A stretch of 64,000 bases of DNA from Denitrovibrio sp. (GTDB lineage: Bacteria; Chrysiogenota; Deferribacteres; Deferribacterales; Geovibrionaceae), in the NCBI GenBank assembly GCA_002869185.1, contig PKTN01000001.1, positions 682,001 to 746,000 of the forward strand, written 5' to 3'. How positions within the stretch are numbered: the first letter of the stretch is position 1; each line of letters begins with the position of its first letter. Of this stretch, positions 15,725 to 23,217 are shown one piece after another. Position numbers and translations under genes: made by a program. A model generated the notes under the pieces. The model made no database searches. It had not been told where the DNA came from and saw only the letters and a program-made list of their open reading frames with translations.

Positions 15725-15756
15725 AAAAAAAGGGGAAACATCTAAGCTTCCCCCAT
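15725..15756 (-). terminator. Terminator of the TRAP operon
   Basis: Minus strand GGGGAAG-CTTAGATG-TTTCCCC is followed by TTTTTTT, 38 bases after the dctM stop. Confidence 0.85.
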
Positions 15757-15793: not shown

Positions 15794-17143
15794 CTAGAAT
15801 CCTTGGCTAATACCAAAAAACTCTGGCCATACAGCAAGAATAATGAGTACTGCTGCCTGTATAGCGATAAATGGCATAACGCCACGATAAATGTGTGTCG
15901 TTCGAACCTCTGGCGGTGCACAACCTTTTAGGTAAAACAGGCTGAATCCGAACGGAGGTGTCAGGAAAGATGTCTGAAGGTTCATAGCGATCAAAATCGC
16001 AAACCATACAGGATTAATGCCTATTGCCTCTGAAATAGGAACAAGTATCGGCACAATAATATATGAGATTTCGATAAAATCTATAAAAAATCCGAGAACC
16101 ATGATCGCAAGCATGGAAAGAATAAGGAAGCCCCACTTCTCTCCTGGTAGCCCCATCATGAATTCTTCTACTATCATATCTCCACCAGTATATGTGAATA
16201 CCATTGAAAAAGCAGTCGCTCCAACAAGGATACCAAATACCATCGCTGTAACTTTAACTGTTTCAAGTGAAGCATCAAACATCATCTTAAATGAGAATTC
16301 TTTATACATAATAGCAAGTATAATAGCACCAACTCCACCAACAGCAGCTGACTCTGTAGGAGTAGCAACTCCACCAAAAATAGAACCAAGCACAAGTAGG
16401 ATAAGTACTAACGGTGGAACAATAGCTTTAAGAGCAGTAAAAATCTGCTGAAGCTTATTTCCTGTTACTCCCTCTAGTCTTACAGGAGGAGCAGCATCCT
16501 TCTTCACAAAAGCGTAAATAAGAATATATACTATATAAGCACCAACAAGTGTTAACCCTGGCCATACAGCAGCCTGAAAAAGGTCACCAACAGGAACCTG
16601 GAAAACATCCCCGAGAATAATAAGCACAATCGAAGGCGGTATAATCTGCCCAAGCGTTCCCGCAGCACATATAGTACCAGTAGAGAGCTTATTATCGTAT
16701 TTATACTTAATCATAACAGGCAAAGAGATAACACCCATCGCAACAACAGAAGCTCCTACAACACCCGTGGAAGCTGCAAGGAGAGCACCCACAAGTACAG
16801 TACTGATAGCGAGTCCACCTCTGAGCTCACCAAAAAGGAAGCCCATAGACTCGAGAAGTTTCTCTGCTAGGTTAGCTTTTTGCAGGATGATACCCATGTA
16901 TATAAATAACGGAATAGCCATAAGGATTGTGTTGTTCATGATGGCATAGATACGGTGAGGCATGAAGGCGAACATAGTCTTACCTATCTCAAAACCTTCG
17001 AGTATTGTCCCGCCATACATTAATGATTCTGAAAGTCCTGCTATCATACCGAATACAACTGAAACTGCGCCAAATGTAAATGCAACAGGATAACCAAATA
17101 GCAGCATACAAAGTGCCGCAAAAAACATAATGATTCCTATCAT
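15794..17143 (-). CDS. dctM: TRAP transporter large permease (DctM)
   Basis: The 449-residue integral membrane protein has about 12 hydrophobic segments. It starts MIGIIMFFAALCMLLFGYPVAFTFGAVSVVFG, the usual first helix of DctM, and contains GVVGASVVAMGVISLPVMIKY and GTLGQIIPPSIVLIILGD, the conserved scaffold/elevator loops of the family. The C-terminal HIYRGVMPFIAIQA is also typical. It forms the Na+-driven transport domain and works with DctQ and the binding protein DctP. Its start overlaps the dctQ stop (ATGA), so the two are coupled. Length matches the long (about 430-450 aa) versions seen with TakP-like binding proteins. Confidence 0.96.
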   Translation of the reverse strand: MIGIIMFFAALCMLLFGYPVAFTFGAVSVVFGMIAGLSESLMYGGTILEGFEIGKTMFAFMPHRIYAIMNNTILMAIPLFIYMGIILQKANLAEKLLESMGFLFGELRGGLAISTVLVGALLAASTGVVGASVVAMGVISLPVMIKYKYDNKLSTGTICAAGTLGQIIPPSIVLIILGDVFQVPVGDLFQAAVWPGLTLVGAYIVYILIYAFVKKDAAPPVRLEGVTGNKLQQIFTALKAIVPPLVLILLVLGSIFGGVATPTESAAVGGVGAIILAIMYKEFSFKMMFDASLETVKVTAMVFGILVGATAFSMVFTYTGGDMIVEEFMMGLPGEKWGFLILSMLAIMVLGFFIDFIEISYIIVPILVPISEAIGINPVWFAILIAMNLQTSFLTPPFGFSLFYLKGCAPPEVRTTHIYRGVMPFIAIQAAVLIILAVWPEFFGISQGF

Positions 17144-17676
17144 TTTACACTCTCCACAGCATCTATTTCTTCATCATTATACTTATTAATAATGTTTAAA
17201 TTCTTCACAATAGTTCCTAAACTGCAAAACATTAAAAGGAAAAATGATCCAGGGACAAAAGCCTTAATTATCCATCTATGGGTGAGACCACCAGGGTCTC
17301 CACTTATTTCGTGAGTACTATAAGCCTCCATAAGAAAATCTATAGACCCAAAAGCAATAAGTAATGAGAAAGGGATAAGAAATACTATAGTACCTACAAG
17401 ATTTATTATAGCTTTCTTCTTTTTGTTAAGGTTATCATAAATAACATCGACTCTAACGTGTCCATCAGCTTTTAATGCATAAGATATTCCCACAAGGAAT
17501 ACTACAGAAAAGATATGCCACTCCAGCTCTTGAAAAGCGATAGAACCAGTTCTAAAGAAATATCTCATAATTACGTCATAAAATACGTTTAGCATCATGA
17601 GTATCATGAGAGTACCTGTAAAATAACCAAGCCAATCAGCAAAACGATCAAAGAATTTTTCTAATTTTAATAACAT
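17140..17676 (-). CDS. dctQ: TRAP transporter small permease (DctQ)
   Basis: The 178-residue protein has four transmembrane helices: LGYFTGTLMILMMLNVFYDVIMRYFF, LEWHIFSVVFLVGISYAL, LVGTIVFLIPFSLLIAFGSIDF and WIIKAFVPGSFFLLMFCSLGTI. The motifs 'R-Y-F-F-R-T-G', 'Q-E-L-E-W-H' and 'H-V-R-V-D-V-I-Y' are diagnostic for DctQ of the 2-oxoacid type. It stabilises DctM and contacts DctP in the periplasm. It overlaps dctM by four bases. A long hairpin separates it from dctP, which probably lowers its expression relative to the binding protein. Confidence 0.95.
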   Translation of the reverse strand: MLLKLEKFFDRFADWLGYFTGTLMILMMLNVFYDVIMRYFFRTGSIAFQELEWHIFSVVFLVGISYALKADGHVRVDVIYDNLNKKKKAIINLVGTIVFLIPFSLLIAFGSIDFLMEAYSTHEISGDPGGLTHRWIIKAFVPGSFFLLMFCSLGTIVKNLNIINKYNDEEIDAVESVK

Positions 17677-17712
17677 ACATATACCTTTTTATCTTGATTA
17701 AAAATATCAAGA

Positions 17713-17752
17713 AAAAGGCCGGCTCATCAATATTATAGTAATAAGCCAGCCA
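17713..17752 (-). terminator. Intercistronic hairpin/attenuator between dctP and dctQ
   Basis: The minus strand reads GGCTGGCTTATTACTATAAT, then ATTGATGAGCCGGCC, then TTTTT. It forms a stem of 9 or more pairs with G-T wobbles. Placed between the binding protein and permease genes it can terminate part of the transcripts and protect the dctP message from 3' decay. Confidence 0.75.
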
Positions 17753-17789
17753 TTATTTTTATCTTAGACTATGATACCTAAAGTCAATC

Positions 17790-18854
17790 TTATAGGTTGT
17801 CTTCAAGGTAAAGGTAGTCAGACATTTTTGTCCACTCTCTTGCCTTTTTCTGATAATCAGCCTGTGATTTAAGTGTTTCAGCGAGAAGTGGGTTACCAAT
17901 TGCCTTCTCTTTAAGGAGCTCAGCATTAGCAGCTTTCATAGCATCCATAACTGATTTAGGGAAGGTCTTTATTTTAATGTTAGGATAATCTGTAGCGATC
18001 TTCGCCCAAGCTTCTGCTGACATATGATAGTTCTGAGTGTACATGCCGTAAGAAGCAAGCTTCATAGCGTTTTTAAGGATAGCTTGGTTTGCAGGAGAAA
18101 GCTTGTTAAACTTCTTAGTGTTCACAAGGAACTGAAGCTCTGTCGCAGGCTCATGCCATCCTGTGTAGTAGTAAGGAGCGATCTTATGAAAGCCCATTCT
18201 GATATCCATACCAGGTCCAACCCACTCAAGAGCATCGATTGTACCACGCTCAAGAGATGTATAAAGCTCTCCAGAAGGGATGTTAGTTACTGTGAGACCA
18301 AGCTTAGCAAGTACTTCACCAGCGAATCCAGGGATTCTCATCTTAAGACCTTTAAGATCGTCGAGTGAGTTAATCTCTTTCCTGAACCATCCACCCATTT
18401 GGTTTCCTGTGTTACCACCAGGGAATGACATAACATTATGCTTAGCGTAAGCTTTTTGCATAAGCTCCATACCGCCACCATGATAGAACCAAGCGTACTG
18501 CTCAGGTGCTGTCATACCGAAAGGCATAGTTGTGAATGGAAGAAGGTTAATATCTTTACCTTTCCAGTAGTATGAAGCAGAGTGTCCCATATCATACTGA
18601 CCGAGTTTAACCATATCAAGAACACCAAAAGGTGACTTGTGTTTGTTTGAAGCGTCTATACGAATAACGAAATTACCGCCACTCATCTCTTCTACCATTT
18701 TAGCCATATTCTCCACTGCGTCTGAAAACGGAACGGCTGTAGGTCCCCAAGTCATAGCAAGCTTCCAGCGAACTTTCTTCTCTGCGGCCTGAGCAGTCAC
18801 TGCAAAAGTGAGCATAACAGCGAGTGCTACAATAGCCATCTTAGTAAATTTCAT
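17790..18854 (-). CDS. dctP: TRAP periplasmic binding protein, 2-oxoacid/lactate (TakP-like) type
   Basis: The protein has a signal peptide (MKFTKMAIVALAVMLTFAVTAQAA) and a DctP-fold mature part of 330 residues. Distinctive segments are WKLAMTWGPTAVPFSDAVENMAKMV, MGHSASYYWKGKD, FPGGNTGNQMGGWFRKEI, LKMRIPGFAGEVLAKLG and GTIDALEWVGPGMDIRMGFHKIAPYYYTGWHEPATELQF. The last is characteristic of the TakP/ketoacid-lactate subgroup; the conserved Arg in KMRIPG binds the substrate carboxylate. Known members bind pyruvate, other 2-oxoacids or lactate. GGAGG precedes the ATG. Being next to a BtsSR-like system points to pyruvate. It is the first gene of dctPQM. Confidence 0.95.
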   Translation of the reverse strand: MKFTKMAIVALAVMLTFAVTAQAAEKKVRWKLAMTWGPTAVPFSDAVENMAKMVEEMSGGNFVIRIDASNKHKSPFGVLDMVKLGQYDMGHSASYYWKGKDINLLPFTTMPFGMTAPEQYAWFYHGGGMELMQKAYAKHNVMSFPGGNTGNQMGGWFRKEINSLDDLKGLKMRIPGFAGEVLAKLGLTVTNIPSGELYTSLERGTIDALEWVGPGMDIRMGFHKIAPYYYTGWHEPATELQFLVNTKKFNKLSPANQAILKNAMKLASYGMYTQNYHMSAEAWAKIATDYPNIKIKTFPKSVMDAMKAANAELLKEKAIGNPLLAETLKSQADYQKKAREWTKMSDYLYLEDNL

Positions 18855-18972
18855 ATTTCCTCCTTTAATATCGTAAACATTTTGAGCTTTATTTTAGCTT
18901 ACATTCAATTTTAATCTCTAAAGATGTAGCTATCAACAGAATGGTTGTTAAAGGGTTATATTTGATGATTAA

Positions 18973-18998
18973 CGGATGATAAGAAAATTAAGCGGATG
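18973..18998 (-). promoter_or_regulatory. Tandem LytTR/BtsR-like box upstream of dctP
   Basis: On the minus strand CATCCGCTTAA and CATCCGTTAAT begin 20 bases apart, about two helical turns. As I recall, the E. coli BtsR site is two ACC(G/A)CTCA copies separated by 13 bases. CCGCTTA differs from CCGCTCA by one base. The box is 119-144 bases before the dctP start, within the 161-base btsR-dctP gap. Confidence 0.55.
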
Positions 18999-19015
18999 GA
19001 ATTGGTAAGACCAAT

Positions 19016-19732
19016 TTACTTTATTCCAAGATGTTGCTTCAAACTCTTCAGTAATCTCCTGCTGACAGGAACGTTTATACTGTTGTATGTAAGCAGTTCT
19101 GCCGCTCCGTTATCAAGAAGTTTTATCTCTTTTATGCGGTTTAGGTTTACCATATATTGCCTATGGCAACGAAAAAGGTCAGTCCTCTCCTCTAACACCT
19201 TTAGAGTGAGATCTGTTAAGCAACTCTTATCTTCTGAGATAACATGAATCCCTGTAATGTCAGATTCGATATAATCGACAACATCAATATCAACAAGCTT
19301 TATCACATTATTAAGGCTGCAAGGAATCTTCTTAAGTGATGGAATTGCATAGTTCGGCAAGCTGTCTTGGATCATAGCCTGATGTATACGAGTAACTGTT
19401 TGGCTAAGTCGTTTTGGCTCTATCGGCTTCAAGAGATAGTCTAGTGTATCCTTTTCGAATGCTTTAATAGCATATTCGTCATAAGCTGTAACAAAAATAA
19501 CTAGTGGCACGTCTGATTGCTCGAGCATGCTAAGCATATCAAAGCCATTTAAACCAGGCATCTGTATATCTAAAAAGAGTATATCCGGAGAGTGTTCCTT
19601 AACAGCTTTGACACCTTCAACGGCATTTTCGCACTCTTCTACTATATCGAAACAATCAAAGCCAGCAAGCTGATGTCTCAGCTCTTGCCTTGCATAAGGC
19701 TCATCATCAACAATTATTGTTTTATATCTCAA
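19016..19732 (-). CDS. btsR: LytTR response regulator, BtsR-like
   Basis: The 238-residue regulator has a receiver domain (IIVDDEPYARQEL, phospho-acceptor Asp55 in LFLDIQMPG, TAYDEYAIKAFE, LLKPIEP). A LytTR DNA-binding domain follows (KKIPCSLNNVIKLVDIDVVDYI..., LEERTDLFRCHRQYMVNLNRIKEIKLLDNGAAELLTYNSINVPVSRRLLKSLKQHLG). Remembered against E. coli BtsR, the segments ECxNAVEG, TLxxLExRTxLxRCHRQYxVNL and VPVSRRxLKSLK are shared almost word for word. Family knowledge: BtsR activates the pyruvate transporter gene btsT. Here the neighbouring target is likely dctPQM. It overlaps the kinase gene by 11 bases. Confidence 0.9.
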   Translation of the reverse strand: MRYKTIIVDDEPYARQELRHQLAGFDCFDIVEECENAVEGVKAVKEHSPDILFLDIQMPGLNGFDMLSMLEQSDVPLVIFVTAYDEYAIKAFEKDTLDYLLKPIEPKRLSQTVTRIHQAMIQDSLPNYAIPSLKKIPCSLNNVIKLVDIDVVDYIESDITGIHVISEDKSCLTDLTLKVLEERTDLFRCHRQYMVNLNRIKEIKLLDNGAAELLTYNSINVPVSRRLLKSLKQHLGIK

Positions 19733-21413
19733 TGTTAGCCTCGTTAACAGGTATTGTTACTTTTATGGTTGTGATCTCATCTTTAACGCAATCAACCTCT
19801 AGCCCGTAATCTTGTCCCCACATGTTCTTTATTCTCTTATCTACAATAGCTAGACCAAGACCTTCTGCATCAGAAACGTTAACACTTTCATCAAACGCAC
19901 CAGCATTGTCCTGCACTTCGATAATTACATTTTCGCCATCTCTATAGCCTTTTACAACAACTCTAAGTCCGCCCATCACCTGCGACATCCCGTGTTTGAT
20001 TGCGTTCTCTAAAAGAGGTTGCAGAGTAAAACTAGGTATCTTTATATGCATAAGACTTGGATCCACCTCTATTTTAACATCTAAATGTTTTTCAAACCTC
20101 GCTTTCTCAATAATCAGGTATGAGTTTATGTGATCGAGTTCTTCGTCCAGTCTTGAAACAAGGTGCTGTCTTTTAAGATTTTTTCTAAACATATTAGAAA
20201 GATGCTGAATAAGCTCTATTGCCTTATCGGGCGCAACCCTAGTTACTGACAAAATCGTATTAAGAGTGTTAAATAAAAAATGTGGATTGATCTGTGCTTG
20301 TAACAGCTTTAGTTCAGATTCCACCAGAAGTCTCTTTTGGTCAGAATACTTAGCTATGAATAGTTGAGTCGATAGAAGACTAACAAGACCTTCTCCAAAT
20401 GATTTATTAATATTCAAAAATCTTTTAGATTTTGATTCGAAAAGTTGAATCGTACCAATCAACTCTCCATCTACTTCAAGAGGGATAACAAGAACAGAGT
20501 TCAAAGGACAATCACGCTTTAGAGGGCATTTAAACGGCTCTTTAGCCCCATCTAAAAAGATTACCTTCCTTGTCTTTATAGATTGCATTGTTGAAGGTGA
20601 AGCTACAGGAGAGCCAACCTTATGGTGCTCACTCCCTACCCCTTCAAAAGCCAATATTGTAGACTGATCAGTAATAGCAACTGCACTCACCCCTATCTCC
20701 TTTTTAAGAAGTTTAGCAAGCTTAACAGGAACATCCTCTGTCAACCCTCGTGAAAACAGGTGTAAGCTCTTATCTGCAACCCTTAGTGCTTTTTTAGAAA
20801 ATAGTGCACCATACTCATCAACCATGCTCTTTTGATCACCTAGTATACTAATAAAGAGAGCTGCTCCAAATGAATTAGAGAGCATCATAGGTAAAGCAAT
20901 AACCTGAACAAGTGCCAAAGCCTCAGTGAAAGGCTGTGCCACAATTAGTATGATCAGCATCTGCACCGCTTCACTAATAAATGTAACTATAAAAGCAAGC
21001 CTATAAGAATATATCTGATCGCCCTTACCATGCTTCATGTAATAATAGTGAAACATTCCAGCAATAATCCCTTCCGCTGTGGTAGAAAGCCCACAGGCAA
21101 CATCCGTAAAACCACCCATCATATATCTATGGATACCAGCTGTTAAACCAACAGCTCCACCCAAGATTGGCCCACCAATAAGCCCAGCCATAACAGCTCC
21201 AATGGCTCTAGTATTAGCAAGTGCATCATGTATAGGAAGTCCCATATAGCTACCGAAAATGGTAATACTGGAAAAAAATATATAAGTAAAAAGAATATCA
21301 CGAGTACGTTGGTTTGAGCTAAGAACAGTTTTGAAACCAGAAGTCTTGCTATATAGGTATGCTATAACAGCAAAGACAGCCATTTGTTGAAGTAGTGGTA
21401 TAAAAAGGTTCAT
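19722..21413 (-). CDS. btsS: LytS-type sensor kinase, BtsS-like
   Basis: The membrane kinase starts MNLFIPLLQQMAVFAVIAYLYSKT. I prefer ATG 21413; the track start adds 13 residues. The 5TM-5TMR_LYT sensor contains SIANTRAIGAV-like ALANTRAIGAVMAGLIGGPILGGAVGLTAGIHRYMMGGFT. A GAF-like domain follows (VSAVAITDQSTILAFEGVGSEHH..., CPLKRDCPLNSVLVIPLEVDGELIGTIQLFE). The kinase has LKLLQAQINPHFLFNTLNTI with the phospho-His, and LENAIKHG plus GLGLAIVDKRI in the ATPase. Its domain order and wording follow E. coli BtsS, a high-affinity pyruvate receptor. This makes the pair with btsR and dctPQM a likely pyruvate-response module. Confidence 0.9.
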   Translation of the reverse strand: MNLFIPLLQQMAVFAVIAYLYSKTSGFKTVLSSNQRTRDILFTYIFFSSITIFGSYMGLPIHDALANTRAIGAVMAGLIGGPILGGAVGLTAGIHRYMMGGFTDVACGLSTTAEGIIAGMFHYYYMKHGKGDQIYSYRLAFIVTFISEAVQMLIILIVAQPFTEALALVQVIALPMMLSNSFGAALFISILGDQKSMVDEYGALFSKKALRVADKSLHLFSRGLTEDVPVKLAKLLKKEIGVSAVAITDQSTILAFEGVGSEHHKVGSPVASPSTMQSIKTRKVIFLDGAKEPFKCPLKRDCPLNSVLVIPLEVDGELIGTIQLFESKSKRFLNINKSFGEGLVSLLSTQLFIAKYSDQKRLLVESELKLLQAQINPHFLFNTLNTILSVTRVAPDKAIELIQHLSNMFRKNLKRQHLVSRLDEELDHINSYLIIEKARFEKHLDVKIEVDPSLMHIKIPSFTLQPLLENAIKHGMSQVMGGLRVVVKGYRDGENVIIEVQDNAGAFDESVNVSDAEGLGLAIVDKRIKNMWGQDYGLEVDCVKDEITTIKVTIPVNEANIEI

Positions 21414-21894: not shown

Positions 21895-23217
21895 TTACTT
21901 ATTCTCTTTTTTGTCAAAAAGTGTGCCTATAGCATCGTGCATCATTTTACCTGCACGCTCTTCTATCATTTCATCTAAATGGCAAAATACTTCCGCACTA
22001 GCATTTTATATCTTTTCTATTCTGTCTTTTATCTCGTCAAAAGAGCAGTCTTGGAAGTTCTCTATACATCTAGTAAAAAGTGTATTTGCCTCTTCATGAA
22101 CAATACTGTGAGGTGAGAGTAGAGCTCTATATCCAGCAGTGTCGCTGAATGTCTCTTTACCTTTTCCAGTGTCGTACCAGTTACCAAGTCGGCAATCTTT
22201 GTGTGAAACACAGCTAAAGCCGTCAGTCCCTTCGAGAACACTATTGTAAAGATTGTTTTTATATATAATGTGGTCGATCTTAGCTAGATTAGCAAATATC
22301 TGATTACTGAGATCCATTGTCTCGTACATAACTCTATTAGCATTTTTACTAAAAGTTTGGATTTTATCTTTAAGCTCGACAGTATTATCGGAAACAGCCC
22401 CCATATTCGCCTGAACACTATTAGTATTCTCAAGCAAGGTTTGAATATCTTTATGCATACCGTCAACCACCTCTGATATCTCTGAAGTAGCACTCTGTGT
22501 TCTCTCGGCAAGCTTCCTAACCTCATCCGCTACAACAGCAAAGCCTCTCCCCGCTTCACCAGCTCTAGCGGCTTCAATAGATGCATTTAGTGCCAAAAGG
22601 TTTGTCTGATCAGCAATATCTTTAATAAGGTTAGTAACCTGTGAAATATCTTCGCTCCTCTTTGAAAGAGCGCTGCTTGTCACTGTTGATTCTTTTATAA
22701 AGGCTTAAAGATCAGAAACTTCTTTACTAAGTACTTCTACATTCTCCATACCTTTATCAGAAAGTCCTGCTGTATCTTTAGCTTCAGTGATCATCTCTTC
22801 CATCTCGCCAAGCATTTTGATAAAGAAATCTTGGTTCATTTTAAATGAAGTAGTTACTGTCCCCTGATGTATCTCTGCGAAAAGCTCATGTATTTTAGAG
22901 CTAAGACCATCCGTACTAATAGCATATGCTGTTGCTCCTGTTGATAAGCCAACTGTCTTAACATGCATAATACCGTGTGGAGTATCAACCTCATTGTTCC
23001 CTCTCAAGAGCTCAGGAATCATTTCATTTGTAATTTGATGCTCATCAGCGTTTGTATTCATAAATACAACCTGTCCAGCATCAGCAACGATCATAAGCTC
23101 ATGATGCGCAACCTTTGCTATCTCTTGAAAAAAGTCTCTCTCTTTTTTCAGCTCAGCAACCTCGAGTTCCAAATCCTGAATTAGTTTCTGATTTTCTTGT
23201 TTCTTAGAAAAAAACAT
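21895..23217 (-). pseudogene. Soluble methyl-accepting chemotaxis protein with CZB domain, two in-frame TAA codons
   Basis: The track splits this gene into 170-aa and 225-aa pieces, but one frame runs from 23217 to the final TAA at 21895 (441 codons). It is broken only by TAA at codon 171 (22705-22707) and codon 404 (22006-22008). The N-terminal part is a coiled coil followed by a PAS-like segment (HELMIVADAGQVVFMNTNADE). The signalling tip is [35 protein letters not shown]. The CZB zinc-binding domain has [18 protein letters not shown] and [13 protein letters not shown]. Coding continues cleanly after the second stop (NASAEVFCHLDEMIEERAGK). CZB receptors sense zinc or hypochlorite. Either a recent pseudogene, a sequencing error, or readthrough. 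Confidence 0.85.

Follow-up and report, generated by a model that had tools for sequence, protein, structure and literature searches.

BtsS and BtsR are a sensor kinase and a response regulator that, to our knowledge, have been studied almost entirely as the switch of a CstA-family symporter in gammaproteobacteria. Other pyruvate-responsive systems of the LytS family control pyruvate carriers outside the CstA family, namely LytST with PftAB in Bacillus subtilis and LytSR with LrgAB in Gram-positive bacteria. In Escherichia coli, pyruvate binding by BtsS requires R72, R99, C110, and S113, an S113T variant is inactive, and BtsR activates btsT (PMC10653868). The present analysis concerns a 64-kb stretch of DNA (the window; contig C5:682001-746000) from G000, a 2.78-Mb genome that is kin to the Denitrovibrio-like Deferribacterota. 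In the window, btsS and btsR are followed by dctPQM, the genes of a tripartite ATP-independent periplasmic (TRAP) transporter. Sequence comparisons make it very probable that the locus is a pyruvate-inducible pyruvate uptake system in which dctPQM stands in place of a CstA-type symporter behind a BtsR box. By the features tested, it fits the BtsS, BtsR, and TRAP/TakP-type families and does not fit the BtsSR-CstA arrangement.

In the proposed mechanism, extracellular pyruvate would be bound by the membrane domain of BtsS, which would phosphorylate BtsR. BtsR would then bind a tandem NCCGCTYA repeat that closely follows btsR and would activate the TTGATA-N17-TAAAAT promoter of dctPQM. The resulting TRAP importer, with a periplasmic Na+/2-oxo-acid binding protein, would take up pyruvate. 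In evolution, dctPQM would have been captured behind a resident BtsR box, replacing a CstA/BtsT-type symporter. For the window locus, we infer ligand identity, BtsR binding, activation, and pyruvate transport from sequence.

The btsSR-dctPQM locus

The genes btsS, btsR, dctP, dctQ, and dctM are all intact and lie in this order on the minus strand. The main features, in the direction of transcription, are:

19722-21413, minus strand: btsS, predicted LytS-type pyruvate sensor kinase of 563 amino acids, from the ATG at 21413
19016-19732, minus strand: btsR, LytTR response regulator with a TTG start and an 11-bp overlap with the btsS stop
18969-18996, minus strand: candidate BtsR box TCCGCTTA-N12-TCCGTTAA, a direct repeat of the tandem NCCGCTYA type with a 20-bp step
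18949-18956, minus strand: weak in-phase third copy, ACCCTTTA, another 20 bp downstream (second-copy pair score 13.5)
18908-18936, minus strand: sigma-70-type promoter with 10/12 consensus matches, TTGATA-N17-TAAAAT, on the downstream side of the box
17790-18854, minus strand: dctP, predicted periplasmic 2-oxo-acid (pyruvate) binding protein of 354 amino acids (PF03480)
17140-17676, minus strand: dctQ, small TRAP membrane subunit (PF04290, 5e-22)
15794-17143, minus strand: dctM, large TRAP membrane subunit, with a 4-bp overlap with dctQ (PF06808, 1e-85; TIGR00786 above cut-off)

In alignment, the btsS ATG coincides with the start of the E. coli protein (the mechanical reading frame begins at TTG 21452), and the overlap of btsS and btsR likely brings translational coupling. 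The TRAP subunit set is complete (DctP, DctQ, and DctM, each recognized by its Pfam family), which bears out the original prediction that the genes after btsSR are dctPQM.

BtsS has the Pfam architecture 5TM-5TMR_LYT, GAF, His_kinase, and HATPase_c, and BtsR carries the Response_reg and LytTR domains. BtsS shares 46% identity with its E. coli counterpart across 558 amino acids and 30% with PyrS; both identities and tree place it nearer to E. coli BtsS than to PyrS/YpdA. BtsR is 50% identical to E. coli BtsR and 28% to PyrR, and scores 313 bits against the NCBIfam equivalog NF008677 'BtsR' (cut-off 246). The closeness to the E. coli pair had been claimed from signature words, and these are present in the translations (ANTRAIGAV, GIHRYMMGG, RCHRQYMVNL, and VPVSRRLLKSLK). 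At the four pyruvate positions of E. coli BtsS, the window protein has R, R, C, and S, and PyrS has R, R, C, and T; the equivalent of H382 is also kept. With all four residues retained, including the serine that PyrS lacks, the window BtsS would sense pyruvate as E. coli BtsS does, in agreement with the same prediction.

The binding protein and its expected ligand

In TakP, pyruvate and the cation are held by Y99, Y100, Q156, R177, E214, W215, and E240 (PMC1839085). According to the alignment, all are kept in DctP as Y95, Y96, Q152, R173, E210, W211, and E235; these are counted from Met1, alignment numbers being one lower as the query began at residue 2. The seven positions are invariant among 25 relatives. 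The nearest solved relatives are 4pet and 5cm6 (65-66% identity), followed at a distance by TakP (35%). By their PDB titles, 4pet and 5cm6 are pyruvate complexes. The AlphaFold model of DctP (mean predicted local distance difference test score 82.9) gives query template-modelling (TM) scores of 0.86-0.89 to 5cm6, 4pet, and TakP, and its next match is 7ug8, an alpha-ketovalerate receptor of Synechococcus. Because the TakP residues are kept and these are the best structural matches of the model, the expected ligand is a 2-oxo acid, most likely pyruvate, and a C4-dicarboxylate would not be expected. The assignment to a ketoacid/lactate class made beforehand thus stands, with the refinement that 4pet and 5cm6 are closer than TakP.

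A second DctP encoded in G000 (L108 7668-8741, contig C12, 68% identical) was considered as a second pyruvate TRAP system and rejected, as no DctQM adjoins it. Its neighbors encode a 4Fe-4S protein and a nitroreductase-family protein. Many Campylobacterota (e.g., L045, L049, and L058) likewise encode similar DctP copies with no recognizable adjoining DctQM.

The BtsR box before dctP

The box was defined from the sequence upstream of E. coli btsT itself, which reads GCCGCTCA-20-ACCGCTTA-21-ACCACTCA, that is, three copies at 20/21-bp steps. This repeat agrees with the BtsR motif of the literature. In the window, the candidate box begins 20 bp past the btsR stop and occupies the stretch 115-142 bp ahead of the dctP ATG; it is upstream of the -35 hexamer and roughly as far from the start codon as the boxes of cstA genes are. 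By analogy with the three-copy btsT box, ACCCTTTA may be a weak third copy. At the same position, a sister genome (G001) has two perfect copies, TCCGCTTA-N12-TCCGCTTA, and the promoter hexamers and their spacing at dctP are identical to those of the window.

Scoring was performed with a matrix built from seven sites of btsT and cstA only, six of them Deferribacterota cstA promoters, and no dctP site. The dctP box has the best matrix score in the window on both strands. Dinucleotide shuffles of the btsR-dctP intergenic region scored as high in 1/2000 cases for the window and 0/2000 for G001. A box pattern allowing up to one mismatch matches only the dctP site in the whole of G000; this pattern was designed to fit that site, and the reversed control pattern has two matches in G000 at the same stringency, so matches with up to one mismatch are weak evidence alone. 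An unfitted repeat with up to two mismatches has a single occurrence in the window, against an expectation of 0.13.

BtsSR, CstA, and the box in the Deferribacterota

Further analysis searched about 50 Deferribacterota genomes for BtsSR, CstA, and the box. The box was found upstream of cstA in all six genomes with BtsSR and a CstA-family gene, three of which (G005, G010, and G011) have it although cstA is on another contig than btsSR, a footprint of probable regulation in trans. It was not found before the related cstA in any of eight genomes without BtsS. The association of box and BtsS has a Fisher p of 3e-4, which is optimistic because the genomes are related; moreover, the cstA promoters in the 6/6 count also supplied six of the seven matrix sites, the first scan having used a fixed consensus. 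A search for CstA (PF02554) gave no match in G000 (92.8% complete) or G001 (99%), both of which have BtsSR, and in these two the box stands before dctP instead. In a cousin genome (G003), btsSR is followed by the box and cstA, and a divergent dctPQM without a box lies on the other side. Adjacency alone is therefore not control. A tree of DctP and DctM groups G000, G001, and G003 in one clade (100/99) beside Sulfurospirillum. Most simply, dctPQM would have been gained once beside btsSR-cstA; the window's lineage would later have lost cstA, and dctPQM would have moved into its place behind the box.

Recurrence in other phyla

Among 345 sampled Desulfobacterota genomes, nine BtsS-like genes were found, most of them beside CstA-family genes. 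One genome (G398) has the order btsS-btsR-ACCGCTTA-21-ACCTCTCG-20-ACCGCTCA-dctPQM, and its DctP is 68% identical to that of the window. In another (G257), cstA and a 2-hydroxyacid-dehydrogenase-like gene are followed by a second three-copy BtsR-type box (L178 5140-5188, minus strand), which points to a further possible BtsR target.

BtsS was found in two of 52 SAR324 genomes, G104 and G060. The former has a btsS-btsR-dctPQM tandem whose gap carries TCCGCTCA-20-ACCTTATA-21-ACCGGTTA; its DctP is of a different subclass (37% identity), with the TakP residues still present. The G060 locus was pieced from two contigs with a 77-bp overlap, the join being deduced from this overlap and from a reading frame that runs on across the junction. 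The joined order is btsS-btsR, a three-copy box, genes for pyruvate:ferredoxin oxidoreductase subunits and an NAD(P)H:ferredoxin-type oxidoreductase, a second box, and dctPQM. The box before dctPQM also has three copies, ACCGTATA-20-ACCGCTTA-21-ACCGCTCA. This arrangement suggests that BtsR in G060 also controls pyruvate catabolism. A btsS remnant and a gene of the AAA-ATPase/PDDEXK_9 kind also lie between the parts of this locus (L152, which is G060:C221, and L023).

In a tree of BtsS, from which the too fragmentary G060 protein was left out, the TRAP-linked sensors need three changes, of which well-supported branches force at least two; the tree rejects a single clade. These relatives show that the importer swap behind BtsSR happened more than once. 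Synteny of BtsSR with dctPQM, which the original prediction had named as a check, thus recurs in G001, G398, G104, and G060, with adjacency but no box in G003. Sensor residues, the TakP site, the box before dctP, and this recurrence together support its central proposal that BtsSR would control a different type of transporter for pyruvate.

Limits to this pattern were also found. In a contig search around the 80 closest DctP relatives, linkage to BtsSR was not found for 79, although one of these, L023, was later placed in a BtsSR locus by way of an overlapping contig. The claim was therefore narrowed from 'general' to 'recurrent but lineage-restricted'. Among 369 sampled gammaproteobacterial genomes, the neighbors of BtsS were CstA (60% identical to the G003 protein) or other genes, and no TRAP transporter was seen. 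The box would probably act as a fixed socket for unrelated importers, a wider claim held with less assurance than the reading of the window locus. It would have received CstA/BtsT or, at least three times (Denitrovibrio-like Deferribacterota, G398, and SAR324), a TRAP transporter. In the window's genus, CstA would have been lost in BtsSR species, with G003 as an intermediate that has both.

Alternative explanations

Several results weigh against a pyruvate importer under BtsR control. The second repeat of the window box, TCCGTTAA, has two mismatches. The region upstream of G003 dctP has no box, 714/2000 shuffles scoring as well. Among the 80 close DctP relatives, the box is absent upstream of 78, none of which scores above 7.5, and BtsS is absent from 17 of 20 of their genomes and present in three; the wiring is therefore lineage-restricted. 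The DctP site is, moreover, common to other 2-oxo-acid binders. It is conceivable that regulation has been read correctly and that DctP mainly imports lactate or another 2-oxo or 2-hydroxy acid, with pyruvate only as the inducer. TakP-type sites accept several 2-oxo acids (alpha-ketovalerate in 7ug8), and lactate-binding TRAP proteins exist in the wider family (2zzv). However, the two closest solved structures, 4pet and 5cm6, are pyruvate complexes, 2zzv is a more distant protein, just 24% identical to DctP, and the G060 locus includes pyruvate:ferredoxin oxidoreductase subunits, so that we consider another main substrate unlikely.

It would also fit the arrangement in G003, and the fact that most dctPQM operons of this DctP clade are unlinked to BtsS, if dctPQM were a mere neighbor of btsSR and the BtsR target lay elsewhere. 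Against this speak the box, which lies in the btsR-dctP gap of four genomes (G000, G001, G398, G104) and precedes dctP in G060, the lack of another site with up to one mismatch in G000, and the undetected CstA target in G000 and G001. An unlinked target is accordingly quite improbable. Finally, the position of a box does not by itself give the sign of regulation, and E. coli BtsR is labelled a 'dual regulator' in RefSeq; BtsR might mainly autoregulate, or repress rather than activate dctPQM. The placement of the box upstream of the -35 hexamer, at about the start-codon distance of the cstA boxes, and the activation of btsT by E. coli BtsR (PMC10653868) make this very improbable. Activation of a pyruvate importer by BtsR remains the preferred reading.

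Other features of the locus

Hairpins were found at two places in the operon, and one of them has counterparts in two relatives:

17717-17751, minus strand: hairpin in the dctP-dctQ gap, 13-bp stem followed by a T-run (minimum free energy -25.5 kcal/mol, z -6.9)
15731-15754, minus strand: terminator-like hairpin and T-run 3' of dctM
L109 10160-10200 and L110 7085-7127: counterpart dctP-dctQ hairpins in two relatives

The dctP-dctQ hairpin and T-run occur at the same place, with differing sequences, in the window, G001 (z -6.0), and G003 (z -4.1). This element is likely a partial terminator or a stabilizer of the mRNA 3' end, and DctP is likely made in excess over DctQM. Two genes upstream of btsS, a chemoreceptor gene (22006-23217, minus strand) is interrupted by two in-frame TAA codons. 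Its counterpart in G001 (MCPsignal and CZB) is a single open frame of 447 amino acids with about 72% identity, and the broken copy is either a young pseudogene or an assembly error.

Significance

A literature search for BtsSR or LytTR regulators with TRAP transporters returned nothing relevant, most subscription papers lying outside the search. Both modules are known; what appears undescribed is how they are wired together, that this wiring recurs in three phyla, and that the target has been exchanged. The BtsSR sensor and its DNA site are now placed in other phyla, ahead of a binding-protein-dependent transporter that would be able to scavenge dilute pyruvate. The natural series of cstA only, both, and dctPQM only offers a model for target exchange in a two-component regulon, and the analysis gives a functional annotation to an operon commonly labelled 'dicarboxylate transporter'.

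Comparison with known systems

The closest described system is E. coli BtsS/BtsR-BtsT (YehU/YehT-YjiY), which shares with the window locus a homologous sensor and regulator, the pyruvate pocket, the repeat sequence, its 20/21-bp spacing, and a pyruvate importer as (here predicted) target. The E. coli target is a CstA-family symporter encoded elsewhere in the genome, whereas BtsSR of the window would serve a tripartite TRAP transporter, which includes a periplasmic binding protein and whose genes adjoin btsSR. On the transporter side, TakP of Rhodobacter sphaeroides, 4pet, and 5cm6 share with DctP the fold and every residue of the cation/2-oxo-acid coordination set; these were studied as binding proteins, and control by BtsSR is unreported in the papers examined.

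E. coli PyrSR-YhjX resembles the window locus as a LytS-family pyruvate-responsive system that controls a pyruvate carrier unrelated to CstA. Together with LytST-PftAB and LytSR-LrgAB, it differs in sensor subfamily and transporter family, none of the three involving TRAP. In Sinorhizobium fredii, RpuS/R also places a pyruvate importer, MctP, under two-component control (PMC9100948), but its SLC5/STAC kinase and symporter are unrelated to BtsSR and TRAP. Vibrio mediterranei (L177 3447-8577) has a pyruvate-class dctPQM (68% DctP identity) beside a two-component system as well. Unlike in the window, this consists of an sCache_2/HisKA_3 (Cache) kinase and a GerE (LuxR-type) regulator, with no BtsR box, and the pyruvate-class dctPQM is therefore tied there to a different two-component system.

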